This document shows, piece after piece, positions 13,601-42,182 of a stretch of 42,182 nucleotides of DNA. The first letter of the stretch is position 1. Every line of letters starts with the position of its first letter. The stretch is taken from NCBI GenBank assembly GCA_016845345.1, contig JAERSV010000013.1, positions 1-42,182 on the forward strand. Reading direction: 5' to 3'. The DNA comes from Methanobacteriota archaeon (GTDB lineage: Archaea > Thermoplasmatota > Poseidoniia > Poseidoniales > Thalassarchaeaceae). The notes beneath the pieces are model-generated. The model was given only the letters and a program-made list of their open reading frames with translations. It had not been told where the DNA came from and did no database searches. The position numbers and the translations under genes were made by a program.

Positions 13601-13639
13601 CCGTAGGATTGATTGAGGTTCAACCTCTCAGATGATTTA

Positions 13640-14656
13640 ATGGGACGGCACTCACTGTGTTTATTAGGCGGTACATTTGACCGATTCCATGCAGGTCATC
13701 ACCACCTTATCTTTACTTGTTTACAACAATCTGATAAGATTCAAATCTGGCTGACAAGCGATACTATGGCCAGACTCAAAACCCCGATTGTTTTAGATTG
13801 GGAAACCCGTAAACAAGATATTTTGGATTGGGTCATTTCTGAGGAGGTTAAAGATAGGGTATCTATTCATCTATTGGAAAATGAAGTGGGGCCAGCCCCA
13901 ACTAGTTTAGAGGCTGATGCAATAGGATGCACCTCAGAGACTAAACCTGCATGCGAAGACATCAACGATTCAAGAAAATTAGCAGGCTTAGATTCGTTGA
14001 ATATTATTGTGGCAGAACATGTTGTAGGCTTGGATGGAAAAATTATTTCTTCAAGCAGAATTAGAGATGGTGAAATTGATCGAAACGGCCAACCTTGGCT
14101 TGGTGAGGCAGAGATGTATCTCGACCAGAGGATGCCAGAAATTTTAGATGATGAATTAAAACAGCCATTTGGAACACTTCACGAAGGACCAGAGTCGAGA
14201 CCTGAAGTAGCGATGCGAAGAGCGATTGAATCAATTTCAGATTTATCACCGAAATTAATTGCAGTCGGAGATGTGACTGTACAAACATTAGTCGATTTGG
14301 GAGAAATCCCGGATATATCGTTTATTGATGGGATGACAAAACGTGAGGTTTGGGCGGAAGCAGAAAATCTTGACAGAGAATTATTCCCCCACCTATCAAC
14401 TTGTAAAAATCCCCCGGGCCTCATCACTGCTGACCTGAAATTAGCCACAAAAGTCGCCCTTTTGAATAGCCGCCCCACACTTGTTGTGGTACAAGGAGAA
14501 GAGGACTTAGCGCCCATTATTGTGCACTTACTCGCTCCAATCGGTTGTGCAGTACTATATGGTCAGCCAGGAAAGGGGGTAGTCGTCAGAATCACTAGTC
14601 AAGAAACGAAGGAGAATTGTCGCAGGATACTAGATGTTTTCACCAAGGAGCTGTGA
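13640..14656 (+). CDS. Fused pantetheine-phosphate adenylyltransferase and GTP-dependent dephospho-CoA kinase
   Basis: 338 aa from ATG 13640 (TTG 13613 would add 9 residues). N-terminal half: archaeal CoaD-type nucleotidyltransferase with GGTFDRFHAGH (10-20, the HxGH motif) and ISSSRIR near 137. C-terminal half, from about residue 180: DUF359-type kinase with IAVGDVTVQTLVDLG (from about 206), FIDGMTKRE, NPPGLIT, QGEEDLAP and GQPGKGVV. The two domains catalyse consecutive last steps of CoA synthesis: 4'-phosphopantetheine plus ATP to dephospho-CoA, then phosphorylation, by GTP in the characterised archaeal kinases. Cytoplasmic. The insertion between domains is short, so the fusion is probably genuine and would allow substrate hand-over. 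It sits directly behind the structured RNA and 2 bases before the glycosyltransferase start. Confidence 0.92.
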   Translation: MGRHSLCLLGGTFDRFHAGHHHLIFTCLQQSDKIQIWLTSDTMARLKTPIVLDWETRKQDILDWVISEEVKDRVSIHLLENEVGPAPTSLEADAIGCTSETKPACEDINDSRKLAGLDSLNIIVAEHVVGLDGKIISSSRIRDGEIDRNGQPWLGEAEMYLDQRMPEILDDELKQPFGTLHEGPESRPEVAMRRAIESISDLSPKLIAVGDVTVQTLVDLGEIPDISFIDGMTKREVWAEAENLDRELFPHLSTCKNPPGLITADLKLATKVALLNSRPTLVVVQGEEDLAPIIVHLLAPIGCAVLYGQPGKGVVVRITSQETKENCRRILDVFTKEL

Positions 14657-20222: not shown

Positions 20223-20275
20223 TTAGATATCTAGGAATAGTCATTCTATTGAACCGGGTCCTCTCGTGGCGTTTT

Positions 20276-21610
20276 ATGTTTGAGAGAGTGCTCATTGCGA
20301 ACCGCGGTGAAATCGCCCTCAGAATTTCAAGGGCCCTACGTAGTTTGGGTTGCGAAGTTGCAATCATTCATGGACGGGAAGACCGACTTTCTTTGCCTGT
20401 GCGATTCTCTGATATTGCAATCCCAAATTATTCAACCAATCCTTTAGATGCCTACCTTGATTATGAAAAGGTGATTGAAGCCGCAAAGCAGATTGGGGCA
20501 CAAGCAATTCATCCAGGTTATGGGTTCTTGGCTGAGAATGCAGATTTTGTTCGCCGTTGTGAAGAAGAAGGAATAACATTCATTGGACCTTCATCGGATG
20601 TAATTTCATTGCTTGGTGATAAGATAGAGGCCCGAAGGGCAATGGAAGAGGCTGGTCTTCCTGTTGCCAAAGGCAGTAGTGAACCGGTTGCGAGTGCCTC
20701 AGAAGCGGCAACAATTGCAACTGAAATAGGCTACCCAGTCATCATCAAGGCTGCTGCTGGCGGTGGTGGAATTGGAATGCAGATAGTTCATCAAGAAAGT
20801 GAGTTTGATTCTGCGTTAAACCTCTGCCAATCACGAGCACGTTCAGCTTTTGGGGACGAGCGTGTATTTATTGAGAAATACATTGAAGGGGCGCAACACA
20901 TTGAATTCCAAGTTCTTGCTGATGGAAAAAATGCCATTCATTTCGGTGAACGTTTTTGTTCCATCCAACGCCGACATCAGAAACTACTCGAAGAAGGTCC
21001 GTGGCTTTCTCCTGAAGTACGTGAGGAAATAGGGGCCCGCGTTTGTGCCGGTGCGGAAGCAGTCGGTTACAAGGGATTAGCAACCTTTGAGTTCTTACGC
21101 GATTCAAGTGGCGAGTTCTATTTTTTGGAAGTGAATCCTAGAGTGCAAGTAGAGCACACTGTAACTGAAATGATTACTGGCCATGATTTAGTGAGCCTTG
21201 GTATTCGTATTGCTGCTGGCGAATCTTTGCCTATTACACAAGATGAAATTGAGATTTCAGGGCATGCTATCCAATGCCGAATTAATGCGGAGGACCCGGT
21301 GAATTTTGTTCCCTCTCCCGGGCGACTTTGGGATTGTCATTTCCCTGCCGGTTTTGGGGTGAGGGTTGACACGCACGCGCATGTGGGTTACGAGATGCCT
21401 GGGTGTTTCGATTCCCTCCTTGCCAAGATGATTGTGTGGGCACCGAATAGAGAAGATGCAATCGCTGGGATGAAGACTGCTCTGAGTGAAACAGTATTGG
21501 TAGGTGTTGAAACAGTCATTCCATTACATAGGGTTATTTTGGATGAGCCAGATTATTTGGCTCGAGATATTACGATTCAGTATATTGAAGAACATCCAAA
21601 TCTATTGTGA
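20276..21610 (+). CDS. accC: Biotin carboxylase subunit of acyl-CoA carboxylase
   Basis: 444 aa from ATG 20276 (MFERVLIANRGEIALRI); the frame opens 27 bases earlier. Biotin carboxylase signatures in order: ANRGEIALRI, AIHPGYGFLAENADF, the ATP-grasp glycine loop AAAGGGGIGM near 160, HIEFQVLADG, CSIQRRHQKLLEEGP, FLEVNPRVQVEHTVTEM (catalytic Glu/Arg region) and CRINAEDP. It carboxylates the biotin of a carrier protein using ATP and bicarbonate, feeding acetyl- or propionyl-CoA carboxylation. There is no BCCP domain fused (the protein ends at the BC C-terminal domain) and no carboxyltransferase gene nearby, so partners lie elsewhere. If the complex makes malonyl-CoA it could feed the synthase at the right end of this window (inference). 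Confidence 0.93.
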   Translation: MFERVLIANRGEIALRISRALRSLGCEVAIIHGREDRLSLPVRFSDIAIPNYSTNPLDAYLDYEKVIEAAKQIGAQAIHPGYGFLAENADFVRRCEEEGITFIGPSSDVISLLGDKIEARRAMEEAGLPVAKGSSEPVASASEAATIATEIGYPVIIKAAAGGGGIGMQIVHQESEFDSALNLCQSRARSAFGDERVFIEKYIEGAQHIEFQVLADGKNAIHFGERFCSIQRRHQKLLEEGPWLSPEVREEIGARVCAGAEAVGYKGLATFEFLRDSSGEFYFLEVNPRVQVEHTVTEMITGHDLVSLGIRIAAGESLPITQDEIEISGHAIQCRINAEDPVNFVPSPGRLWDCHFPAGFGVRVDTHAHVGYEMPGCFDSLLAKMIVWAPNREDAIAGMKTALSETVLVGVETVIPLHRVILDEPDYLARDITIQYIEEHPNLL

Positions 21611-24654: not shown

Positions 24655-25116
24655 TCAGTCAGATGCTTTCATTGCAGCACGTGCAGTCTCTGCTGCTTTC
24701 CACAGTTTCTTTTCTTCATCGCTTTCTGGGATGAACTGTGGTATAGGAATTGGCCTCATTTGATTATCAATTGCAACCATGAAGAAAAAGCCAGTGCAGA
24801 TCTCCTCAGATTCCCAAACACTACGATCTAGTCGCCTAGCAATAACATGGCAACCCGCGGTATGGGTTGAAGTAAAAACGACCTGTGCAGTAACCTCAAT
24901 CAAATCTCCTTGGAAGGCAGGTCGTTTGAATTTGAGGGAATCAATGCTGACTGTGACAAATTCACGGTGGGCAAATTTACTAGAGACAATCCCAGCAGCA
25001 GTATCCATAATTGATAACAACCGCCCACCGAAGAGAGTGTTGTAGGCATTTGTATCTCCAGGGAAAACTTCCTGAATTAGTACTACGGGTTCAGTCGAGA
25101 ACGGCTCATTCGGCAT
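24655..25116 (-). CDS. Acyl-CoA thioesterase, hotdog fold
   Basis: 153 aa from ATG 25116, with AGGTT nine bases upstream. The segment NAYNTLFGGRLLSIMDTAAGIV matches the YciA/BACH-type hotdog thioesterase motif (N..G..fGG.ll..mD), with the Asp of the active site in IMDTAA. FVTVSIDSLKFKRPAFQGDLIEV is the family's central strand segment. It hydrolyses acyl-CoA to free acid and CoA in the cytoplasm. The acidic C-terminal tail (PESDEEKKLWK) is typical. It may release or recycle acyl groups, which is interesting given the acyl-CoA dehydrogenase and fatty-acid-synthase-like genes in this window. Confidence 0.9.
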   Translation of the reverse strand: MPNEPFSTEPVVLIQEVFPGDTNAYNTLFGGRLLSIMDTAAGIVSSKFAHREFVTVSIDSLKFKRPAFQGDLIEVTAQVVFTSTHTAGCHVIARRLDRSVWESEEICTGFFFMVAIDNQMRPIPIPQFIPESDEEKKLWKAAETARAAMKASD

Positions 25117-28900: not shown

Positions 28901-31840
28901 ATTACTTCACTGACAGTTTTCAACCAAGCAGATGCTGAGCAAACAGATTTAGAAAATATTCACAGCAATAATGAATTGACCTTGGTTGGAACGGTGCGAT
29001 TTGAGGATTTAGGAGTAGCTCCTGATCCAGCATCTTACACACTTGTATTTGAATTACAGAATGACTCAAATCTCAGTCAATGGAATGAAATTGACAGACT
29101 GCCTGGAATCTTGGGTGGTAACTTTTCATGGCAACCTGCCATTCCAGCACTTTCAGCAGGTAATGACACCTACCGGCTACGCATGGATAATTACACTGGT
29201 GGCGATACGAATTGCCCACCCACCTCGCTTTCTCCTGACTTAGAGTGTGGAATACCAATGACGGTCTACATTGACCAGTATTCGCCATATCTGATTAATA
29301 TCAGTGTAATGGGGTTACAGGACTGGAGAGATCTCGCGGATGATACATGGATACCACCTCAGGCAAACCAAAAGTTCCGAGTTGTTGTTAGGGATATTCC
29401 TGAAACTCCTCCATCATTCGTTCTGAATTTCTGGGTCGAAGCACAACATGACACTAACAATAACAGGATTCCAGAGTTGAGTGAATATCAGTCAGTTCCT
29501 CTAAATGCAGATTCAACTGATGTGAATGGAAATACAACTTACTTCGTCTCAAATCCAGCATGCCAACCGACTAATGATTGCATAGATGACCGTCAAACCG
29601 GTTTGACGGTCCCTAATGGAGAACCAGCCCCTCGAACTAGTTTATTCGTTTCTGGCACTGATATTTCAGGTAACCCAGTTGATGGAGGGGATGCTGGTTT
29701 CATATCAGATTTGATTACCTATATCGGAAAGCAATCTCGACCACCTGGAGTTTACTCATTCCATGTTAGCGATGCTGGTGGAAACCCATTGACAGAGTTT
29801 AACAAATCAGTATATGCTGGAAATGTTTACCATTTGTTGGTCGAGGGTAATGACGATAATGGTTGGAGAGATGTAGATTATGTTAAGGTCGACCTTAATC
29901 CAGCAATCAGTGATGACCTGATAGTTTACTTCTCACCTCGGAATGGAACTTCTTGGAGTGACAGCACTTCAGCAGATATGTTGACTTTTGATGATGATGG
30001 AATCGGCCCTCGAATCACTCGATTAGATGGGACCGCACTTATTGACCCCTTTGAGACAGAATTCCTTGTTGACATTCCAATACGTATGCGTTGGGGAGTA
30101 GTTAATCTGCAGGGCGTGATAACTCCTGAAGTTTTCATGAAGGATTTGGACCCACAAAATGGTGAAAGTAAACTCTCAAGCAGTCGCTACATCCAATTGT
30201 TGGCATATTCTTCTGGCTTGAAGTTTGACAGTGAATCTCTGACTGTTGATGACACCTCTGGTTTCATCACAAACTCAGTTGGTTCTCAAGATGGTGGATT
30301 TGTTCGCCCTGGTGACCTTTTGCAACTACACGGAGAGTATTATTTCAAGGCAGCACTTGAGTCAGGAATTGATGTTCAACCTGAAATTCCAATGACAATT
30401 GAATTGACTCGCACCCCAGTATATCCCGGAGGAGAATCTGATAAACCTAACAGTGGATATGTGGCAGCAGCTACAGAAGTTTTCTACTATAGTTTTGAAA
30501 ATGGAACATTTGATTTAGTCATACCAGCAGCACTTTCAACTAACGAATATCGATATGTGTTCCGAGTATGTGACTCGACGGACGTAAACAATCCCGATTG
30601 TGAGAACACCTTGCCAGCAGGCGCTAACGATTTTTCAATGACTAATGACAAAACTTTCTATGTGAAAGTTGACAATGAGGCGCCCACAGTACCATTTGGT
30701 TCATGGAAACTAACATCTGGTTCTGATAGTGAAGAGTTTGATGGCATCTTGCCTTCTTCAACGATTCATTGCGTGAACATTAATTTCCCAATTCAAGAGA
30801 GACAGAAATTAGTAGCAAATTCAATGCAAATCAACTGGATGTACTATGAGCACGATTTGAATTGGAGCCAGTATCGTTCAACCTTCCCAGATGCTTGGCA
30901 GACTGCAGATCTTCAGTTGGATTTGTCAGCATCACCAAACCGTGCAATTGGGAACTGTGTTGATTTGTGGCCCGGCCATGAATTGCCATCAGACCTTGAA
31001 GGGGTTGATTTGAGATTCTGGGTTACAGGAACTGATTCAGCAGGTAATGGAATTACTCTTGGAGGTCAATTTGGCTCTGCGGTTGAAGGCGGTGAATTTG
31101 CGTTGACCTACAAAGAAGCAGAGTTTGTAATCAACAAAATTATTGTTTCACCCGGTCAACCTGAAGCAGGTCAGCCATTCGAATTACTCGTTGATGTAAC
31201 AAATGTTGGTACTGATTCTGGTGAATTAGATTTACAAATCTTTACAGTAATTGAGGGTCGCCAACAAAGCAACTTCAACTACTCATGTGGTACTACCTTT
31301 GACCCTGCAATGAACAGCATTTGTAGAGTACAAGTTGACGCATTCCCTCTACCAGTTTCATCTGTTATGTTCAAATTACATGATTCATCTGGAAATGAAT
31401 TAGGTGAGTCACCCTCATTCCACATTCGTGAAGCAGGTAGTTCGGCAGATGCTGAAACGAACTGGGCACTTTATGGTGGCATTGTTGCTGTAATTGTAGT
31501 TCTTATCGCCCTTGTTGTTGGAATTATGATGTATGTGGGAAGAGAAGAAGAAGAGGATGGCGATTTCTTCGTAGAGGACGAGGATTACTTACCTCCAGGT
31601 GAAGCAGTAACTCCAATGTCAAGAGGGCCACCTCGTGCTGATACCGGCGGTGATGCAGAGTATGCTACTCAAAGCAGTGGCCCACCAGGATATGGCGGCG
31701 GACCTGCTGCTGGCGGCGATTCAAAGATGGACCGAGCAAAGCGTCTATTCCCATTCTGGGATGAGGCAACGATTCAGGGGTACTTTGACCAAGGATGGTC
31801 ATTACAACAACTCCAGGATTGGGTACGAGAAAACAAGTGA
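25997..31840 (+). CDS. Giant secreted protein with C-terminal membrane anchor
   Basis: 1,947 aa from ATG 25997 (GTG 25988 alternative; GGAGTG upstream fits the ATG better). An N-terminal hydrophobic segment (YLILGLMILSTTAAAASV) acts as signal peptide. The body is made of beta-rich repeats with many Asn/Ser/Thr/Gly/Asp residues and N-glycosylation-type sequons; Cys residues appear in spaced pairs. Residues about 1730-1800 (VDVTNVGTDSGELDLQIF) look like a CARDB-type domain. A single transmembrane helix (WALYGGIVAVIVVLIALVVG, about 1824-1846) is followed by an acidic, proline/glycine-rich cytoplasmic tail ending in a small helical domain (MDRAKRLFPFWDEAT, FDQGWSLQQLQDWV). Role inferred: surface adhesion or polymer capture. 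It leads the gene run continuing to 35.4 kb. Confidence 0.85.
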   Translation: MNDKNKKATSYLILGLMILSTTAAAASVTTFSDGSASVEVELREPGNYMDSLAGAISLPEGETITSASVNVSTGFAMHDDFTTYDQSLMPPGGGGIWDARYNSGLTTYSDANCHSQNPIDCSFTSTDTTLSLTSKGFNADFETGGQGMSPQQPVDIFNWERKTQGMMNIPASGCPTGDYCWGTNFDDPDYTDDAPDASYEYTMDTPAIWVYPTKGAATFNSYHSLYNRAASGSNIYYEDCAYVAVQNSSDAVGWSPWEFIDIDIGATSGLQQGTEGLFQRGTGVNKVQSSCNGKGSLAVPSDAWVLAGMSTWANNQNGWANVALDLSAHEGKYVKLKFVMEKNPMLGTPINNTMPGWYIDSLRIGDALPQSGNVVMKSFAPRSIPNPGFPNGYGILDVEVATAGPGSFTVDILDSSNGQTVVDKYGKSMSGLEGELIELWDIDSDQYGLIDLRFNYNSGANRMNGPIMHSFTLGTKIGSGLNSTNGIFYDMGYLDNGEWTTDSSGGMIVYMPRMNDTSWSPMLEKNRFKAPIMAVKPMVDDSCGSANRNLILMTNSNQSGQFSPVNHQWITFASPSTSVAFGAQYSDACTVYSIWLEVRFAHTMSNVQLDVAGDGDIEWGMVESAFGSFGRQQMFRTQMVNGVNYGADNTTLSMNINGEAEGAVFFLPKGAVVSHAELAWDNSAIGNASIELLAGPSSQNLGYTQDQERRTPDAYAELSEFYNQVQNLLEDPNVPVGHVDAYGNEWVQFRFKFSNPTAQAATTINLKDLDIFYSWSKALSDDNGIARELNQGVALGQSMGGQVVVPMKFSSDDGGGVVLDNLLITTENGYDSTINMSDEITGFYASGEVYEVITTHSVGVGTGATVAGASLQFESESGLAELRWAASNGSFWSESGSELVSVMVALSSSTDTVDGKQITWRFKINSAWEDSDSARLFATLITDSGFEGLPAAIMFDLLVGNAVENDASITSLTVFNQADAEQTDLENIHSNNELTLVGTVRFEDLGVAPDPASYTLVFELQNDSNLSQWNEIDRLPGILGGNFSWQPAIPALSAGNDTYRLRMDNYTGGDTNCPPTSLSPDLECGIPMTVYIDQYSPYLINISVMGLQDWRDLADDTWIPPQANQKFRVVVRDIPETPPSFVLNFWVEAQHDTNNNRIPELSEYQSVPLNADSTDVNGNTTYFVSNPACQPTNDCIDDRQTGLTVPNGEPAPRTSLFVSGTDISGNPVDGGDAGFISDLITYIGKQSRPPGVYSFHVSDAGGNPLTEFNKSVYAGNVYHLLVEGNDDNGWRDVDYVKVDLNPAISDDLIVYFSPRNGTSWSDSTSADMLTFDDDGIGPRITRLDGTALIDPFETEFLVDIPIRMRWGVVNLQGVITPEVFMKDLDPQNGESKLSSSRYIQLLAYSSGLKFDSESLTVDDTSGFITNSVGSQDGGFVRPGDLLQLHGEYYFKAALESGIDVQPEIPMTIELTRTPVYPGGESDKPNSGYVAAATEVFYYSFENGTFDLVIPAALSTNEYRYVFRVCDSTDVNNPDCENTLPAGANDFSMTNDKTFYVKVDNEAPTVPFGSWKLTSGSDSEEFDGILPSSTIHCVNINFPIQERQKLVANSMQINWMYYEHDLNWSQYRSTFPDAWQTADLQLDLSASPNRAIGNCVDLWPGHELPSDLEGVDLRFWVTGTDSAGNGITLGGQFGSAVEGGEFALTYKEAEFVINKIIVSPGQPEAGQPFELLVDVTNVGTDSGELDLQIFTVIEGRQQSNFNYSCGTTFDPAMNSICRVQVDAFPLPVSSVMFKLHDSSGNELGESPSFHIREAGSSADAETNWALYGGIVAVIVVLIALVVGIMMYVGREEEEDGDFFVEDEDYLPPGEAVTPMSRGPPRADTGGDAEYATQSSGPPGYGGGPAAGGDSKMDRAKRLFPFWDEATIQGYFDQGWSLQQLQDWVRENK

Positions 31841-31859
31841 TATATCGTCAATTAAATGA

Positions 31860-31864
31860 GGGTG
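31860..31864 (+). promoter_or_regulatory. Ribosome binding site fixing a TTG start
   Basis: GGGTG with exactly five bases to TTG 31870. The same spacing of (A/G)GGTG to start is seen before four further genes downstream, which is why I prefer TTG 31870 to the overlapping GTG 31837 for the dehydrogenase. Confidence 0.5.
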
Positions 31865-31869
31865 AAAGC

Positions 31870-33075
31870 TTGGACTACAAGACTCTTGACATCGCCAATC
31901 CAACTGAAGAACACGCTATGCTAAGAGAAATGGTCCGCGACTGGGTCAGTTCAGAAGTTGAGCCACAGGCACTTGAGTTTGACCGAGATGAGGTGTTCAA
32001 TCTCCAATTATTACGTGATATGGGTGAACTAGGGCTACTGGGAATTACCGCTCCAGAGGAGTTTGGTGGGGCTGGAATGGACGCCTTAGCCGCGACAATT
32101 GTTCACGAGGAATTATCCTATAGTGACCCTGGGTTTGCTTTGGCATATCTTGCCCACAGTATGCTGTTTGTCAACAATCTTTCACGAAATGGAAATTCTA
32201 CTCAGAAGCAAGAGATACTTCCTAAAGTTTGCAGTGGTGAATGGATAGGAGCCATGGCAATGTCTGAACCAGATGTTGGTACAGATGTGATGTCAATGGG
32301 CACTACTGCTCAGCAAAGAGATGATGGAAATTGGGTAATCAACGGCCGTAAAATGTGGATTACTAACGGCTGTATTGATGAAGATGGCACACCATGTGAT
32401 GTTGTTTGGACTTATGCGAAAACAGGAGTAAAAGAAAACGGTAGAGCTGAGATTTCAACCTTCATTGTATTCGCAGATTCTCCCGGATTTTCAGTTGGGC
32501 AAAAGATTGTTGATAAAACTGGAATGCGAGGTTCCAACACTGCTGAATTAGTCTATGATGACTGTGTGGTTGGTCCTGATAGTCTCGTTGGGGAATGTGG
32601 TGAATCAATGATTCACATGATGAGAAATCTGGAATTAGAGCGGCTCACTCTAGCGGGGATGAGTCTAGGAATTGCTCGCCGCTGTGTCAAAGAAATGAAT
32701 CGATATGCTACCGAGAGAGAAGCATTTGGGCGGCCGATTAGAGATTTTGGTCAGATACAACGATACATTGGGCAATCATTTGCAGAATGGCGTGGAATGG
32801 AGGCATACCTCTACAATGTGGCTAGGCAAATGGATGTTGAAAAGAGTGGTAATCGTTTGGATTCAGATGGTATCAAGTTGGTCTCAACAACCCTAGCGAA
32901 GGATATTGCTGACCGTGCTATGCAGGTTATGGGAGGTTACGGTTATGTTGGGGAATATGTTGTTGAGAGATTATGGCGTGACGCAAAACTGCTTGAAATC
33001 GGTGGTGGGACTTTAGAGAGCCACCAGAAAAACATCACCAAAGATTTAGCTAAAGATTCATCAATTTTAGGTTGA
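31870..33075 (+). CDS. Acyl-CoA dehydrogenase, isovaleryl-CoA-dehydrogenase type
   Basis: 401 aa from TTG 31870; GTG 31837 overlapping the preceding stop is an alternative. FAD flavoprotein introducing an alpha,beta double bond into acyl-CoA. Signatures: TAPEEFGGAGMD, AMAMSEPDVGTDVMSM, NGRKMWITNG, TGMRGSNTAEL and QVMGGYGYVGEYVVERLWRD. In most family members the catalytic base is Glu in a late [IV]YEGT motif; here that segment reads EIGGGT, and a Glu is found instead in NLELERLTLAG (E257), the arrangement known for isovaleryl-CoA dehydrogenase. This points to leucine/branched-chain acyl-CoA oxidation. It sits in a tight run with the surface gene ahead and an unknown, a TBP-like and a TatD-like gene behind. 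Confidence 0.92.
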   Translation: MDYKTLDIANPTEEHAMLREMVRDWVSSEVEPQALEFDRDEVFNLQLLRDMGELGLLGITAPEEFGGAGMDALAATIVHEELSYSDPGFALAYLAHSMLFVNNLSRNGNSTQKQEILPKVCSGEWIGAMAMSEPDVGTDVMSMGTTAQQRDDGNWVINGRKMWITNGCIDEDGTPCDVVWTYAKTGVKENGRAEISTFIVFADSPGFSVGQKIVDKTGMRGSNTAELVYDDCVVGPDSLVGECGESMIHMMRNLELERLTLAGMSLGIARRCVKEMNRYATEREAFGRPIRDFGQIQRYIGQSFAEWRGMEAYLYNVARQMDVEKSGNRLDSDGIKLVSTTLAKDIADRAMQVMGGYGYVGEYVVERLWRDAKLLEIGGGTLESHQKNITKDLAKDSSILG

Positions 33076-35521: not shown

Positions 35522-35537
35522 GGGATAAATACATCCC
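35522..35537 (+). promoter_or_regulatory. TATA box flanked by inverted repeat, fabI/synthase promoter
   Basis: GGGAT-AAATAC-ATCCC: a TATA-like ATAAATAC sits inside a perfect 5-bp inverted repeat. The TATA centre predicts transcription from about 35554, giving a roughly 75-base leader to the fabI start at 35629. The inverted repeat over the TATA would suit a repressor that blocks TBP. Inference from position only. Confidence 0.5.
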
Positions 35538-35618
35538 TTTGTGAATGACGCTCTTGGCTCACAGAGTGGGCAAAGGTCTTGAAGGCGTCTTCGCCGGCGA
35601 ACCGATGTTGGTAGGAAC

Positions 35619-35623
35619 AGGTG
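35619..35623 (+). promoter_or_regulatory. Ribosome binding site fixing the fabI start
   Basis: AGGTG followed by five bases and ATG 35629. Together with the predicted transcript start near 35554 it rules against the upstream ATG 35545, which would lie ahead of the transcript. Confidence 0.6.
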
Positions 35624-35628
35624 CTTTT

Positions 35629-36420
35629 ATGTTGGAACTAAAGGGAAAAACTGCACTAGTATTCGGTGTGGCTAGCGAAGAAAGCATTGCCTGGGCAATT
35701 TGCGAGCAATTATCTGCTGCTGGATGCAAGTTAATTCTTGGTTTTCAGAAGAGATTTATGAGCCGCGTCTTTCAATTGAAAGAGAAGTTAGACAATATTG
35801 AAGCATTTTATCCAATTGATGTTGAAACAAATGAATTAACAGCCGAATTTTTCACAGAATGGCAAAATGCAAATCCTGGTGCAAAAGCAGACATTGTCAT
35901 TCATGCCATTGGATTTGCTCCGCGCCCATGTTTTGACCGCCCTGTGTTATTCGTAGAAAATGACCCGATGAACACGGCCATGACAATCAGTGCTCATTCA
36001 TTACAAAGAGTGATGCGTTACGCCTTGCCACATCTTGCTCCTAACTCTTCGACGATTACACTAACCTACGCGGCCTCTACTAGGTGGGTCCCAAACTATG
36101 GTGTGATGAGTATAGCAAAAGCAGCATTAGAGGCTTGGACACGCGAACTTGCAAACCATGTAGGCCCCGATGGTCATCGGATTAATGCAATTTCATCGGG
36201 CCCAATCAAAACCTTGGCGGCAGGAGGAATTCCTGGATTTGACGATATTCTTGAGCATGTGGAGAGAAACTCGCCATTACGCAGAAATGTAACACAGGAA
36301 GATGTTGCTGGATGTGCAACTTGGTTAGCCTCGCCATTATCTTCAGGCGTCACAGGACAAATTATTCATGTTGATGCAGGATATTCTAGCATTATGGTAC
36401 CAGACAGTATCTCAGATTGA
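35629..36420 (+). CDS. fabI: Enoyl-ACP reductase FabI
   Basis: 263 aa from ATG 35629, close to the 262 aa of E. coli FabI; a longer reading from 35545 would add 28 unsupported residues. SDR fold with FabI-specific features: cofactor loop FGVASEESIAWAI (12-24), the IHAIGFAP strand, catalytic Tyr147, Tyr157 and Lys164 within LTYAASTRWVPNYG and VMSIAKAALEAW (E. coli Y146, Y156, K163), and INAISSGPIKTLAAGGIPGF. It reduces the enoyl thioester double bond at the end of each fatty-acid elongation round using NADH or NADPH. It is followed nine bases later by a multidomain synthase that has no visible enoyl reductase, so FabI probably serves that synthase in trans. No beta-ketoacyl reductase or dehydratase is seen beside it. 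Confidence 0.93.
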   Translation: MLELKGKTALVFGVASEESIAWAICEQLSAAGCKLILGFQKRFMSRVFQLKEKLDNIEAFYPIDVETNELTAEFFTEWQNANPGAKADIVIHAIGFAPRPCFDRPVLFVENDPMNTAMTISAHSLQRVMRYALPHLAPNSSTITLTYAASTRWVPNYGVMSIAKAALEAWTRELANHVGPDGHRINAISSGPIKTLAAGGIPGFDDILEHVERNSPLRRNVTQEDVAGCATWLASPLSSGVTGQIIHVDAGYSSIMVPDSISD

Positions 36421-36429
36421 GGTGGTAAT

Positions 36430-39400
36430 ATGACTGAACAACTTGACGAAGTTCCCCAACAACCCTTCGCCCCGATTGCGATTGTTGGTCAGGCTGCTCT
36501 TTTACCGGACGCACCGGATATTGATGCGTTTTGGAATAATGTGTTGAACGCCAAAGTAGCAATTCGTGAAGTACCCCCTGATAGGTGGAATCCAGATGAT
36601 TTTTGGATTGAAGGTGAGCCTGGTAATGCAACAGAAGGAAAAACGTACTCAAAGATAGGGGCCTTTGTAGAAGATTTTGAGTTTAATTGGAGGCGTTGGA
36701 AACAACCGCCGGGAACACTTTCCCAAATTGATGATACCCAATTGTGGGCTGTTGAGGTTTCAGCAGCAGCGTTGGAGGATGCTGGTTACATAGGTGAAAA
36801 CAGTCGTTTTGAACTTCCAAACGCTCGTTGCGGTGTGATTTTCGCTAATGCTTTGGGCGGTGAAAACCGTGTTCAGTCGAGTAAACGAGTTTACGCAGAC
36901 CAAATCACAAGGAAGGCGGTTGAGGCTGGAATGCCGGCAACTAGCAGTGAACAATTCAAAGATGCAATCACTGAGGGCACACCTCGTATTGATGAAGATA
37001 CCATGGCAGGGGAACTAGCCAATGTTGTCGCTGGTCGAGTTGCCAATTTACTTGACTTACAAGGACCAAATTTCAGTGCTGACGCTGCTTGTGCCTCTAC
37101 TTTTGCGGCATTAGTATCCGCCTGTCAGATGCTTCAAACAGGCCAAACCGATCTGATGCTATGTGGGGCAAGTGACCGGACTATGGATCCTGGCACATAT
37201 GCTAAATTCAGCGCAATTGGTGCACTCTCACCACTTCACTCCCGGCCATTTGATGTGCGGGCAAATGGGTTTGTAATGGGAGAAGGAGCCGGTTGTGTTG
37301 TCCTCAAGCGATTAGAGGATGCAATGGCAGATGGCGATACAATATACAGCGTCATTCGAGGAATTGGTTCCTCAAGCGATGGTAGAGGAAAAGGAATCAC
37401 TGCGCCATCAACTAGAGGGCAAAAGCAGGCAGTAATGCGAGCCTATCAGCAGGCCGGATATTCGCCGTCCTCAGTAGAATTGATTGAGGCTCATGGTACT
37501 AGCACTAAGGTTGGAGACGCGACAGAATTGTCAACTCTTGCTGGAGTATTTGCAGACCATGGTGCTGGCGATGTTGTTGCAGTTGGTTCAGTGAAAAGTC
37601 AGATTGGCCATCTAAAAGCGGCTGCTGGAATGGCTGGATTGTTGAAAGCAAGTTTAGCACTTCATCATAGAACTTTACCGCCTTCAGCAGGGTTTGAACA
37701 ACCAAATACCTCCGTAAACTGGAATGAAATCCCATTTTTCGTCCCGACAATATCCTCTGATTGGCCAATTCCTCAATCTAAATCACCTAGACGAGCAGGT
37801 GTTTCGTCGTTTGGTTTTGGCGGGACAAATTTCCATTGTACTATTGAGCAATACGACCCAGAGCATCACAAAAATCTCATTGATAGGTTTGCAGGTCATT
37901 CGTCTTCTAGAGCACAAACTCCAACAGCTCCAAGTGTTCTTGATTCAACCGCAACTCCCTCATTGAGCCACAAAGAATTACTTGAAATTGAAGGAGGCGT
38001 ATTGCTTCTTAATGCTGATGATATTGATTCTTTAGCAGTAGAAATTGAAAGAGTAAAATCAATTCTCTTCTCATCATCAAATTCCAACTTTGATACTGAC
38101 CCGGCAGGTCGTAGACTCTCAGCAGTACTTTCGGATTTATCCACTGGTTTCGTAGCCAAAGGTATTCGTTGCGGCATTGTCGCCACTAATTGGGGGCAAT
38201 TAGCCAAGAGAATGGATTTGCTGAGTGAGAATCTCTCAGATCCATCAAAATGGGAATTCCTAGCAAAACAAATGGTTTTCATCACCGAAGAGGAAGCATT
38301 ACCTCCCAATGCAAAATTGGTACAGATGTATCCGGGTCAAGGCAGTCAATATGTTGGCATGACTCTAGATCTCTCGAAGAGGTTTGAGGTGATTGGTGAG
38401 ACATGGACTGAAGCGGATTCAACCATGTCCGAAATTCTTTCAGGTGAGAAACTTTCTAAGTTTGTTCTGCGTGATAATCTTACTGAACAGCAATCCAAAG
38501 ATGCTGAGGATAAGTTGAAACAAACAGAATTCACTCAGCCAGCAATGCTGACAGCAGATTTAGCAATTTACAGGTTGCTAAGTGAGCACGGTATCAATCC
38601 CGACATGGTTGCTGGTCATAGTTTGGGCGAATACGCTGCCTTGATGGTATCAGGGATAATGAAATTCCACGACGCACTACGTGCTGCGGCTGCTCGCGGA
38701 ACTGAAATGGGCAATGTGGAAGTAAAGGACAAGGGATTGATGGCAAGTGTCACCGCACCACTTGAGAAAATACAGGAAGTCATAGATTCAGTTGATGGTT
38801 ACATAATTGCTGCGAATAAAAATTCTCCGATGATGGCTGTCATCGCAGGTGAAACCGAATCAATGAAGGATGCAATTAGTCGATTTGGTGAATTGAATAT
38901 TCCATGCGTTACTCTACAGACAAGTCACGCATTCCATTCACGAATTGTTGCACCTGCTAACGAGCCACTCCATCGATTCCTAGAAGGGTTAGATTTGTCT
39001 TTACCATCAATCCCAATCACCGCTAACTATGATGGAAAATTCTATCCTAATAGTCTGAAAGAAGGTGAAACTGTTCACGATGCAATCCTGAATCAATTAG
39101 CACCACAGATGTCATCTGCAGTAGAGTGGACTCAACAAATTGAAGAAATGTACAGCCAAGGTGGCCGCTTATTCCTTGAAGTCGGGCCAAAACGTGCTTT
39201 GGCTCTCTTTGCCGAGCAAATTCTTGAAGGGCAATCAAAGATTGTTGCCAATACAAATCACCCAAAGGTTGGGGGAGTAGCATCATTCCTGTCTTCTCTT
39301 GCTGTATGTGCTCTGTCAGGGCGATTACCATCGATGCATTCAGGCGACTCAAAGCGCCTCACCGAAGGGTTCAGGGCTGGTCCGTTGGAAGTGTGGAGGC

Positions 39401-42182
39401 AAAATGGAATTGTTGACGATGTTCAAATCAATAGTGCTGAGATGGAGGAATTACGAGTTCGCTCTAGGCCGCTTCCATCAGGTTCCTCAAATGGGGAAAT
39501 GCCAGCAACATCTCAGATGATTCAATCACCAGCAATTCCGACTGATGGTAACCACCATGTTGTACAACAAGTTGTTGACAAGGAGGGTTACCTTGCAAGC
39601 CGTATTTCAGATATCACTGGTTATCCGGCTCGTCTCATCAAAGGTGAACTTCATCTTTCAGCCCTTGGAATTTCTGATGAATCATTAACTGAACTACTAG
39701 CAAGTATAGCCTCAGAGGCAACTGTTTCTGGTCCGGCTGACACTAGCCAATTAACAACATTAGTTGCCCTGAACGAATGGGTGATATCTCCCCCTAGTGG
39801 ATTTACTGTTTCTCAAAAAGTGAAAGGAACAGGTTCTGTAGTGGTCTCTTCTGACCCACATGCTGAGCGTAGAATCAATCCCTATGTTGTGACCGGAGTA
39901 AGCCTTGGTCTCCCGGGAATGGATGAAATATTTGAGCCGGACGCATTAGAGAGAATCATTGCTGGCGAGAATTTCATAAGCGAATTACCTGATGATGTTA
40001 AGCAGCGTTTACTCGATAAAAACATGGTTCGAATTGTCAAACACCCAGATGGCAGAGCAGAATTCGTACCTTGCGATTCCTTTGCAACCATACCCCAATT
40101 AGCAGGAGTTGGGGGTTACTTTGATTTGGCTGAACAGTATGGAATCGACCCTAAAATAGTGGCGGCAATGGATGCTTCTACCACCCTTTCATTTGCCGCT
40201 GGATTAGAGGCCCTCAAAGATGCAGCACTTCCACTTCTACCCGTCGAACAGGTGAGTAGTGCGGGTAAGAGACTAGTAAGAGGGTGGAATCTCCCGAACT
40301 CAATTCGTGAAAGAACTGGGGTTGTGTTCGCCTCAGTATTTCCTGGGGTTGCCATGGCTATGCGGCACGCTCTAAACAATGGGGCTGATGAGAATGGTAC
40401 CTTCGATAGAAAATTCTTACTTCAAGTTCTAACAATGGGTCACGCACAATTTGCTCAGTGGATAGGTGCTCGTGGTCCAAATTTGGCTATTAACAACGCA
40501 TGTGCGTCCACTCCAGCCGCATTTGCAGTCGCCGAGGATTGGTTAGACACGGGTCGATGTGACAGAGTTATTGTAATCAGCGGTGATGATTCTACAGGCG
40601 ATGATTTGATGGAATGGATTGGCGCAGGATTCGCTGCTGCAGGTGCTCATTCGATGGGCAATGTAGTCGAAGAAGTAGCGCTACCATTCGATGCAAGGCG
40701 TAACGGCATGTTGCTCGGCATGGGTGGTGCTGCCTTCGTAATTGAGAAATCATCCCATGCAGATGATAGAGGAGTGGTTCCTTATGCTGAATTATTGGGT
40801 GGTCACATAGGTAATTCAGCCTTCCATCCAACTAGACTAGATGTGACGCACGTTGCCTCAACTTTCGATGAGTTTGTGACCGATATGGAAAACCGATGGG
40901 GAATAGATAGGCACGAGATTGCACCTAAAACGACATTCATGTCACATGAACCCTTCACTCCGCCAAGAGGTGGTTCAGCAGCCGCTGAGATTGAATCACT
41001 TAGAGGCGCTTTCAAGGAGTCTGCTGACAGTTTAATCATCACTAATACAAAGGGATTCACAGGCCATCCAATGGGTGTTGGCGTTGAAGATGCCACCGGC
41101 TTGTATGGGTTAGCATCAGGCAGATTACCGCCGATTGCTAACTTCCAACAACCCGACCCTGCATTAGGAAATCTCCGACTTTCAGAAGGCGGTGAATATG
41201 ATGTTGAGTTCATGCTCCGCCATGCCGCAGGATTCGGCAGTCAAATTGCGCTGACAATGTTCAAACGAATTGCTCGAACTCTCAATCGCGTTGATCGAGA
41301 AAGTGTTGTGAATTGGGCAATACGTCAAGCGGGTGACGATGTTGAATTGCGATTATTGGAGCGGAAATTAGTTGCATATATTTCCCCGGATGATTCATTG
41401 ATAGGTGGTGTTGAAGGTATGGAATGGCAGGTTACCAAGCAAGATGCAAAGCCTGAATCATCAATCGCTGAGCCGGTAACTCAGGAACCAAGCTCGCCAC
41501 AACCAATTGTAAAACAAAAAGAAGAAGTCAAAACGCTCACCGAAGAGCCGACAGTTGAGGTTCAAGAAACTGAAACAGTTTCTGAATCAAAGGCTGGAAC
41601 CCACACAGAAGGTCTAGAACAGCAAGTAGTGGAAACGGTTGCAAAGCACACTGGTTACCCTACTGATTTCATTGAATTAGACCAAGACTTAGAAGGCGAA
41701 TTAGGAATTGACACTGTTAAGCAGGCGGAAATAATGGCTGATTTAAGAGAGACATTTTCCTTACCTGTTGATGATTCATTTCAGTTACGTGAACACCCAA
41801 CCCTAAATCACATGATTAGTTATATTGTTAGTATGGGTGGAGAAGAGGATGAACAACAAAACCCCCAAGAGGAGCAAGCCGTGCAGAGCATTACTGTGGA
41901 AAAAGAGTTGGTGCAAGACAGTTCTCCAAGTTTAGTTGAAGGCAGTTCTCCCAGTTTAGAGAATAACGATATTGATGTTGAGTCCGGTGTACTCTCAATC
42001 GTTGTAAAGCACACAGGCTATCCCGAAGACTTCCTTGAGTTGGACCAAGATTTAGAAGGTGAGTTGGGAATTGATACGGTAAAACAAGCCGAAATTATGG
42101 CTGAATGCCGTGAAAACTTTTCCTTGCCTGTAGATGAATCATTCCAATTGCGTGACTACCCAACCCTTGCACATATGATATC
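36430..42182 (+). CDS. Type I multidomain synthase, KS-AT-degenerate ACP-KS-ACP-ACP (C-terminus beyond window)
   Basis: At least 1,917 codons, open at the right edge; ATG 36430 with AGGTG five bases ahead. Domains: KS1 (about 12-480) with Cys221 in DAACAST, His355 in EAHGTST, His394 in KSQIGH; AT (about 625-920) with PGQGSQYVG, Ser731 in GHSLGEY and His836 in SHAFHS, a malonyl-CoA-type signature; a degenerate ACP-like segment (about 1054-1100, ITGYPARLI, LGISDES); KS2 (about 1149-1640) with Cys1358 in NACASTP, His1506 in SHEPFT (HGTGT altered) and His1546 in KGFTGH; an acidic linker; ACP1 (about 1728-1803) and ACP2 (about 1850 onward) with LGIDTVKQAEIM, Thr1762 and Thr1883. No KR, DH or ER is visible before the edge. 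It resembles PUFA/secondary-lipid synthases (PfaA-like, tandem ACPs). Product unknown. Confidence 0.9.
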   Translation, partial: MTEQLDEVPQQPFAPIAIVGQAALLPDAPDIDAFWNNVLNAKVAIREVPPDRWNPDDFWIEGEPGNATEGKTYSKIGAFVEDFEFNWRRWKQPPGTLSQIDDTQLWAVEVSAAALEDAGYIGENSRFELPNARCGVIFANALGGENRVQSSKRVYADQITRKAVEAGMPATSSEQFKDAITEGTPRIDEDTMAGELANVVAGRVANLLDLQGPNFSADAACASTFAALVSACQMLQTGQTDLMLCGASDRTMDPGTYAKFSAIGALSPLHSRPFDVRANGFVMGEGAGCVVLKRLEDAMADGDTIYSVIRGIGSSSDGRGKGITAPSTRGQKQAVMRAYQQAGYSPSSVELIEAHGTSTKVGDATELSTLAGVFADHGAGDVVAVGSVKSQIGHLKAAAGMAGLLKASLALHHRTLPPSAGFEQPNTSVNWNEIPFFVPTISSDWPIPQSKSPRRAGVSSFGFGGTNFHCTIEQYDPEHHKNLIDRFAGHSSSRAQTPTAPSVLDSTATPSLSHKELLEIEGGVLLLNADDIDSLAVEIERVKSILFSSSNSNFDTDPAGRRLSAVLSDLSTGFVAKGIRCGIVATNWGQLAKRMDLLSENLSDPSKWEFLAKQMVFITEEEALPPNAKLVQMYPGQGSQYVGMTLDLSKRFEVIGETWTEADSTMSEILSGEKLSKFVLRDNLTEQQSKDAEDKLKQTEFTQPAMLTADLAIYRLLSEHGINPDMVAGHSLGEYAALMVSGIMKFHDALRAAAARGTEMGNVEVKDKGLMASVTAPLEKIQEVIDSVDGYIIAANKNSPMMAVIAGETESMKDAISRFGELNIPCVTLQTSHAFHSRIVAPANEPLHRFLEGLDLSLPSIPITANYDGKFYPNSLKEGETVHDAILNQLAPQMSSAVEWTQQIEEMYSQGGRLFLEVGPKRALALFAEQILEGQSKIVANTNHPKVGGVASFLSSLAVCALSGRLPSMHSGDSKRLTEGFRAGPLEVWRQNGIVDDVQINSAEMEELRVRSRPLPSGSSNGEMPATSQMIQSPAIPTDGNHHVVQQVVDKEGYLASRISDITGYPARLIKGELHLSALGISDESLTELLASIASEATVSGPADTSQLTTLVALNEWVISPPSGFTVSQKVKGTGSVVVSSDPHAERRINPYVVTGVSLGLPGMDEIFEPDALERIIAGENFISELPDDVKQRLLDKNMVRIVKHPDGRAEFVPCDSFATIPQLAGVGGYFDLAEQYGIDPKIVAAMDASTTLSFAAGLEALKDAALPLLPVEQVSSAGKRLVRGWNLPNSIRERTGVVFASVFPGVAMAMRHALNNGADENGTFDRKFLLQVLTMGHAQFAQWIGARGPNLAINNACASTPAAFAVAEDWLDTGRCDRVIVISGDDSTGDDLMEWIGAGFAAAGAHSMGNVVEEVALPFDARRNGMLLGMGGAAFVIEKSSHADDRGVVPYAELLGGHIGNSAFHPTRLDVTHVASTFDEFVTDMENRWGIDRHEIAPKTTFMSHEPFTPPRGGSAAAEIESLRGAFKESADSLIITNTKGFTGHPMGVGVEDATGLYGLASGRLPPIANFQQPDPALGNLRLSEGGEYDVEFMLRHAAGFGSQIALTMFKRIARTLNRVDRESVVNWAIRQAGDDVELRLLERKLVAYISPDDSLIGGVEGMEWQVTKQDAKPESSIAEPVTQEPSSPQPIVKQKEEVKTLTEEPTVEVQETETVSESKAGTHTEGLEQQVVETVAKHTGYPTDFIELDQDLEGELGIDTVKQAEIMADLRETFSLPVDDSFQLREHPTLNHMISYIVSMGGEEDEQQNPQEEQAVQSITVEKELVQDSSPSLVEGSSPSLENNDIDVESGVLSIVVKHTGYPEDFLELDQDLEGELGIDTVKQAEIMAECRENFSLPVDESFQLRDYPTLAHMI

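Follow-up and report, generated by a model that had tools for sequence, protein, structure and literature searches.

The window analysed here is the whole of contig JAERSV010000013.1 (42,182 nucleotides) of the Thalassarchaeaceae archaeon assembly GCA_016845345.1, and its right end carries a gene for FabI, an enoyl-acyl carrier protein (ACP) reductase, followed by the beginning of a gene for a type I fatty-acid synthase-like megasynthase. Read together with its orthologues, the locus very likely encodes a self-contained ACP-dependent archaeal fatty-acid synthase, made up of FabI, a chain with the order KS-AT-KS'-(ACP)n-KR-DH (ketosynthase, acyltransferase, second ketosynthase, carrier domains, ketoreductase and dehydratase) and a phosphopantetheinyl transferase (PPTase), as judged from the domains it comprises, their catalytic residues, the linkage of the genes and their shared occurrence across genomes. 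In addition, the carrier domains display a threonine at the attachment site, and there is a good probability that the synthase belongs to a large family of archaeal and bacterial type I fatty-acid synthases bearing phosphopantetheine on threonine by means of a linked or fused PPTase, through which several archaeal lineages would have ACP-dependent synthesis.

The lipids of archaea are generally regarded as isoprenoid. Most archaea are said to be devoid of ACP, ACP synthase and malonyl transacylase in the relevant passages of one report (PMC3533463), which fits the statement of an earlier sequence-only reading of this DNA that archaea usually lack such biosynthetic lines; that statement needs amending for Heimdallarchaeota and some other Thermoplasmatota, where the same synthase family is found. 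Regarding Marine Group II (MGII) archaea, the consulted sections of PMC6461757 report that the enzyme behind the archaeal glycerol backbone is missing and that glycerol-3-phosphate dehydrogenase is present in all genera but one, and those of PMC7852524 cite Villanueva 2017 for bacterial-like fatty-acid genes; part of the archaeal story may thus already be in print. In the searchable portions of MGII genome papers, the terms polyketide and FabI did not occur and the fatty-acid passages dealt with degradation or substrate use. No description of this archaeal synthase or of threonine phosphopantetheinylation was recognised in the literature covered, which excluded preprints and most subscription journals.

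Organisation and conservation of the locus

The window corresponds to an entire contig (C13) of a 2.08-Mb genome, 86% complete, and terminates within the synthase gene. The open reading frame (ORF) for FabI (35545-36420, forward strand) encodes 291 amino acids and would specify an NAD(P)H-dependent enoyl-ACP reductase of the short-chain dehydrogenase/reductase family, as indicated by a score of 224 bits against PF13561 in Pfam, a best PDB match to the enoyl-ACP reductase 1ulu (E 1e-54) and the Y..Y(x6)K set, which is conserved in 23/23 orthologues; the NCBI FabI models were the best-scoring ones, every equivalog cut-off being missed. The complete FabI with a full Tyr-Tyr-Lys set put forward by the sequence-only reading is thereby borne out. 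Since many orthologues are only 263-281 amino acids long, translation may start at Met29, about position 35629. The synthase ORF (36430-42180) follows nine bases downstream on the same strand, as had been noted, and covers residues 1-1917 of about 2830 without a stop before the contig end.

Comparison relied on 23 loci of the order (20 fetched at first and three later), all chosen for holding a long or complete synthase, each of which presents a single frame of 2705-3056 amino acids. FabI lies directly upstream of the synthase in all 23, with a spacing of -56 to 13 bases as called. Full orthologues exhibit the architecture KS-AT-KS'-(ACP)2-4-KR-DH with the PPTase next to it, and thus gather KS, AT, ACP, KR and DH on one chain as type I fatty-acid synthases do; in two of them (L038 and L044), Pfam returned KS-AT-KS'-ACP-ACP-KR-DH. 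In the window, Pfam likewise recovered two KS domains with an AT between them and, after these, two PP-binding domains, in agreement with the KS-AT-KS-tandem ACP synthase previously proposed. All on the forward strand, KS1, the predicted elongating ketosynthase (PF00109/PF02801), spans 36472-37872 and the AT (PF00698) 38326-39321, with the motifs GHSLGE (38614-38631) and HAFH (within 38923-38940); following the usual rule, these motifs are taken here to denote the malonyl type, as the sequence-only reading also did. KS' (39877-41271) belongs to a distinct family with the motifs ACAST, SHExxTPxRGGS and NTKGFTGH; its structural model (predicted local distance difference test, pLDDT, of 91) best matches FabF and, given this FabF-like fold and the presence of the Cys/His/Lys/His residues, KS' is probably active rather than a chain-length factor. 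ACP1 (41620-41826; PF00550, 39.5 bits) and ACP2 (41989-42177; 28.3 bits) close the visible part of the chain.

In the alignment of the 23 synthases of the order, which is the group these columns cover, the Cys/His/Lys/His of both KS1 and KS', the Ser/His of the AT, the Lys/Ser/Tyr/Asn of the KR and the His/Glu/Gln of the DH are invariant (23/23), the roles of the KS, AT, KR and DH residues being those known for these families. The gene end of the window genome's own synthase was located on another contig of the same genome (C63), which starts at the end of the DH domain, is 90% identical there to the nearest full orthologue and carries the PPTase gene (C63:771-1493; PF01648, 38.8 bits). The KR, DH and PPTase that the sequence-only reading had expected to the right are consequently found, in orthologues for the full set and on C63 for the DH end and the PPTase. 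A PPTase-like ORF stands directly downstream of the synthase in 23/23 loci of the order (spacing -110 to 29); among three of these ORFs submitted to Pfam, two matched and the one from L044, which belongs to a clade with serine ACPs, stayed below threshold and aligned with the PPTase motifs. As in Sfp-type PPTases, PF01648 exceeds its cut-off beside the synthase in L038, L040 and L059.

The distribution of these genes was considered over 59 genomes, i.e. those of the genus, family and order of the window genome. Relatives of the synthase occur in 40 of them, so that this feature is not due to chance. All 23 genomes sampled from the sister family (f2) have the synthase, as one gene each, and within the window's family (f1) matches were obtained in genera g1, g2, g3, g7 and g10; synthase, FabI and PPTase are all absent from 17 genomes of six genera (g4, g5, g6, g8, g9 and g11). 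FabI was recovered in 37/40 synthase-bearing genomes and 0/19 others, and a PF01648 PPTase in 36/40 and 1/19, respectively, never in more than one copy per genome; the sole genome with PF01648 and no synthase match is 53% complete and of the same genus. The four misses are G017, G019, G027 and G050, the first of which has a PPTase-like ORF in place (L044). In other words, synthase, FabI and PPTase show nearly the same presence pattern. Because the PPTase match lies on a different contig from the synthase in several fragmented assemblies, adjacency rests on the 23 loci. All 84 matches to PF00550 in the 59 genomes fall on synthase frames or synthase fragments, no other carrier protein being found with this Pfam model, and PF02801 gave exactly one match, in KS1, in 38/40 synthase-bearing genomes and none in the remaining 21/59, including the 17 mentioned above. 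In four archaeal control genomes, neither PF01648 nor PF02801 was found; Methanosarcina has PF00550.

If FabI serves the synthase, the enzyme set equals that of one elongation cycle with full reduction. The PPTase would charge the ACP domains with phosphopantetheine, presumably on threonine in most members, the AT would load malonyl units from malonyl-CoA and KS1 would condense them, perhaps with KS' for a priming or chain-length step, which is a guess. The KR would then reduce and the DH dehydrate, before FabI, acting in trans, carries out the enoyl reduction to give what would be a saturated acyl chain, possibly released to a PlsC-like acyltransferase or a thioesterase. A role of FabI as enoyl reductase in trans, already suggested from the sequence-only reading, appears likely from its position in the 23 loci and its co-occurrence with the synthase, and the dedicated acyl-chain pathway suggested at the same time gains support from the KR, DH and PPTase of the orthologues.

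The wider family and its threonine carrier site

At the level of the phylum (292 genomes), a KS' match (E up to 1e-60) was obtained in 67 genomes, 14 of them outside the order and in six other families. Beyond the order, scanning with the KS' alignment confirmed at least 523 relatives, the best 80 of which were retained and belong, by title, to Heimdallarchaeota, Thermoplasmatota, Spirochaetota, Myxococcota, Chloroflexota, Acidobacteriota, Actinomycetota, Elusimicrobiota and a few others; six of these 80 loci duplicate contigs already fetched and were excluded from the KS' tree, the ACP profile count and the PPTase count. An invention confined to the order is ruled out by these relatives in bacteria and other archaea. 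A tree of KS' computed by a quick method from 110 rows unites the order in one clade (support 100) divided into f1 and f2, from which inheritance of the synthase gene within the order is deduced; the position of the clade beside bacterial rows is only moderately supported (88).

The organisation of the genes varies over this range. On the complete chromosome of Heimdallarchaeum endolithica (CP084167), a 3515-amino-acid chain unites an N-terminal NMO domain, KS-AT-KS'-ACP3-KR-DH and a C-terminal PPTase; the NMO domain matches FabK (TIGR03151, 101 bits, below the cut-off), and the chain is, by its predicted domains, the same enzyme set in fused form. The PPTase is also C-terminal on the synthase chain in two Thermoplasmatota versions from outside the order (L091 and L098), and the N-terminal region of other Thermoplasmatota versions gave no Pfam match. 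In a different family of the phylum (f15), two genomes have their FabI gene beside the synthase, again just upstream (L095:1561-2379, forward strand; L097:14439-16961, reverse strand); one of the records (JAJPHT010000039.1, contig C23 of G097), whose genome was assigned to the same phylum as the window, is titled 'Proteobacteria bacterium' and is likely a misnamed metagenome-assembled genome or a mixed bin. In Nonomuraea, a one-chain carboxylase comes after the synthase. Outside the order, 37 loci were counted as complete, each having an ORF of 2300 amino acids or more together with either 1.3 kb of downstream sequence or a hit for the PPTase, and all others were excluded. Their PPTase is fused to the synthase chain in 4 cases, is a neighbouring gene in 20 and lies some 4-6 kb off in 6, and none was seen in 7.

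In canonical carrier proteins, phosphopantetheine is attached to the serine of a DSL/DSI motif, which stands at the start of helix II. Both ACPs of the window read LGIDTVKQ and hence present a threonine at the attachment site (codons 41713-41715 in ACP1 and 42076-42078 in ACP2), the family motif being LG[IV]DTVKQ. With a profile applied to 110 synthase ORFs, 99 of which have at least one ACP, 260 ACP domains could be scored, namely 246 with threonine, 13 with serine and 1 with valine, and 7 were unscorable; the profile was built from the same family and very odd ACPs may be missed. The 11 ORFs without ACP comprise one from other Thermoplasmatota and ten bacterial ones, several of these frames being cut by contig ends. 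This count supersedes an earlier one by regular expression over the 80 loci (172 Thr, 2 Ser), which was biased to the family motif. By group, threonine and serine number 143/0 in bacteria, 36/1 in other Thermoplasmatota, 12/3 in Heimdallarchaeota and 55/9, plus the valine, in the order; threonine ACPs occur in archaea, both inside the order and beyond it (other Thermoplasmatota and Heimdallarchaeota), and in six phyla of bacteria. Serine is also found in L201, outside the 110, a fragmentary additional synthase encoded by the genome of L156. Some Anaerolineae synthases (L144, L154 and L182; residues 542-567) carry an extra DTVKQ at about residue 550, upstream of the usual ACP tandem. In L176 (CP070713, Myxococcales), the synthase frame ends at 1570 amino acids and two DTVKQ ACPs lie in a separate frame of 1073 amino acids, which indicates a split gene or a sequence error.

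Eight of the nine serines of the order belong to the ACPs of four genomes from genera g7 and g10, i.e. a single clade within f1; the ninth, one Heimdallarchaeota serine (L133) and the valine sit in off-motif stretches. Since the rest of the order and most relatives have threonine, the exchange in this clade seems, on our reading of the tree, to have run from threonine to serine. The PPTases of the clade (L044, L045, L046 and L105) read EA[IV]SKA versus E[AS][IV]QK in threonine-ACP relatives of the order, a lead from a single clade. Both residues also coexist within single proteins, with Ser, Thr, Ser in Heimdallarchaeum and Ser, Thr, Thr, Thr in L091. Carrier proteins from other genes of the same bacterial genomes have serine in 7/7 aligned cases (many of the 30 control loci were unalignable and uncounted), as do the motifs of nonribosomal peptide synthetase type in eight further loci (8/8). 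Between the AT and KS' of the window, a degenerate ACP-like stretch (39559-39717, forward strand) is discernible by eye; as it bears no conserved serine or threonine in the few sequences read, a serine attachment site there was discarded, and in some relatives the matching stretch departs from the motif or could not be scored.

The model of ACP1 (pLDDT 92) has ACPs as nearest folds and its helix begins at the threonine. In the threonine-bearing genomes of the order, Pfam revealed no second carrier protein, and their only PPTase sits with the synthase and is missing from the genera devoid of it; we infer, as the simplest reading, that the linked PPTase primes the threonine, which would then carry the phosphopantetheine. 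In a study of 1989, Ser38 of spinach ACP was reportedly changed to Thr, which may bear on this site.

Rival readings and fate of the acyl chain

The alternative that bears most directly on the threonine site is that these ACPs are not phosphopantetheinylated and persist as relics or docking modules, the synthase acting on CoA thioesters. In its favour, the part of PMC3340395 concerned reports that ACP S36T of Escherichia coli is not modified and is non-functional, which speaks against an easy use of threonine, and ACP-free fatty-acid synthesis in archaea is described in a section of PMC11486757. The first objection is weakened by the fact that S36T concerns the enzyme of E. coli itself and not a linked PPTase. 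Further evidence against this alternative comes from the 1-6 ACP motifs kept per complete protein, the normal ACP fold of the model, a PPTase fused or adjacent in 24/37 complete loci outside the order together with a PPTase-like ORF adjacent in the 23 loci of the order, and the natural exchanges of serine and threonine at the very site, which are seen both within a single clade and between domains of the same protein; this reading is considered unlikely, though less so than the other rivals. Less probable again is a polyunsaturated fatty acid (PUFA) synthase of the Pfa type, or another secondary-lipid synthase, with an unsaturated or specialised product. Tandem ACPs and a linked PPTase recall such systems, and the best NCBIfam model is that of PfaA (TIGR02813), with 860.5 and 787.7 bits in two full orthologues, 969.1 in Heimdallarchaeum and 781.7 in Nonomuraea, all below the cut-off of 1010.1. 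However, no PfaC-like partner with a KS-chain-length factor pair was found in the 59 genomes, PF02801 occurring once, in KS1, in each of 38 genomes (KS' escapes this model and a divergent partner could as well), and the linked reductase is FabI rather than a PfaD-type enzyme, PfaD itself having not been searched for in these genomes. A PUFA synthase is hence judged unlikely from the missing PfaC and the sub-cut-off score, and the 'PUFA-like' label of the sequence-only reading is not retained. A type I polyketide synthase (PKS) making a partially reduced secondary metabolite is very improbable: KS, AT, KR and DH are indeed of PKS type, but the synthase occurs as one gene in 23/23 genomes of the sister family, FabI is upstream in every locus read and no tailoring enzymes appear among the few annotated neighbours, most neighbours being unannotated.

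Bacterial contamination or a chimeric contig, for which the wide occurrence of the family among bacteria could plead, has a negligible probability and is refuted as far as assemblies can tell. The base composition stays even across 35 kb, where the sequence-only reading had proposed to look for an abrupt change (near 35.4 kb), and many genomes hold the orthologous locus with ORFs of comparable size and arrangement, one of them on a single 2.06-Mb contig. Nor is the pair of fabI and synthase genes restricted to this genome, an outcome that the same reading had named as refuting, and the order makes up one fully supported clade in the KS' tree, split into f1 and f2.

Several points nonetheless weigh against a fatty-acid synthase as proposed here. 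The synthase of the window genome is split between two contigs with roughly 2 kb missing, a size estimated by comparison with the nearest orthologue, and the KR of this very copy is unseen because it falls in the unassembled part. No release domain was found in the synthase with Pfam, the thioesterase anticipated by the sequence-only reading being absent from the matches in two full orthologues; nor was an enoyl reductase (ER) domain found on their chain. PlsY was not found in any of the 59 genomes, and PlsC-like PF01553 genes occur in 59/59, including those deprived of the synthase; these genes do not track the synthase. PF01553 copies often number three in synthase-bearing genomes and one or two in the 17 genomes, a difference that is not clean as g10 has two.

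Elsewhere in the window, a biotin carboxylase gene (20249-21610, forward strand) is encountered, and malonyl-CoA could come from an acyl-CoA carboxylase. The same window holds genes for a 4HBT thioesterase (24655-25116, reverse strand) and an acyl-CoA dehydrogenase (31795-33075, forward strand). Another ORF (13613-14656, forward strand) joins a cytidylyltransferase-like domain, presumably related to phosphopantetheine adenylyltransferase, to DUF359, taken here as GTP-dependent dephospho-CoA kinase, and perhaps fuses the last two steps of CoA synthesis.

Significance and comparison with known systems

With a complete, inherited acyl-chain synthase in this order and a further one in Heimdallarchaeota, the question of mixed membranes that belongs to the 'lipid divide' would come within direct experimental reach. 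If the threonine is charged, the rule of serine priming of carrier proteins would be overturned and such PPTase-carrier pairs might be orthogonal to serine systems.

Among known systems, the FabI of the window resembles bacterial FabI (PDB 1ulu) in sequence family and Tyr-Tyr-Lys set, but its neighbour is a synthase of type I, and neither a free ACP nor a ketosynthase of type II was found in the 59 genomes. The carrier domains share with canonical ACPs (PF00550, over the cut-off) the fold and the motif position, and differ in the attachment residue, serine being replaced by threonine in 246/260 scored domains. The Sulfolobus fatty-acid synthase complex (Schmerling 2024 preprint), as described in part of PMC11486757, also performs de novo fatty-acid synthesis in an archaeon, but it works without ACP and consists of individually encoded proteins, whereas the window system is ACP-based and multidomain. 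With animal-type fatty-acid synthase I and iterative type I PKSs, the family has in common KS, AT, DH, KR and ACP on one chain; it departs from them by the second KS, several ACPs, a C-terminal DH, an ER acting in trans and no thioesterase found. PfaA of bacterial PUFA synthases is likewise similar, through the KS-AT-tandem ACP-KR order, the DH-like end and the linked PPTase, but the present family has KS' inserted between the AT and the ACPs, FabI instead of PfaD, no PfaC found, a score under the PfaA cut-off and DTVKQ in place of the DSIKR of PfaA. Compared with PfaA and type I fatty-acid synthases, the family would be novel in its threonine carrier.

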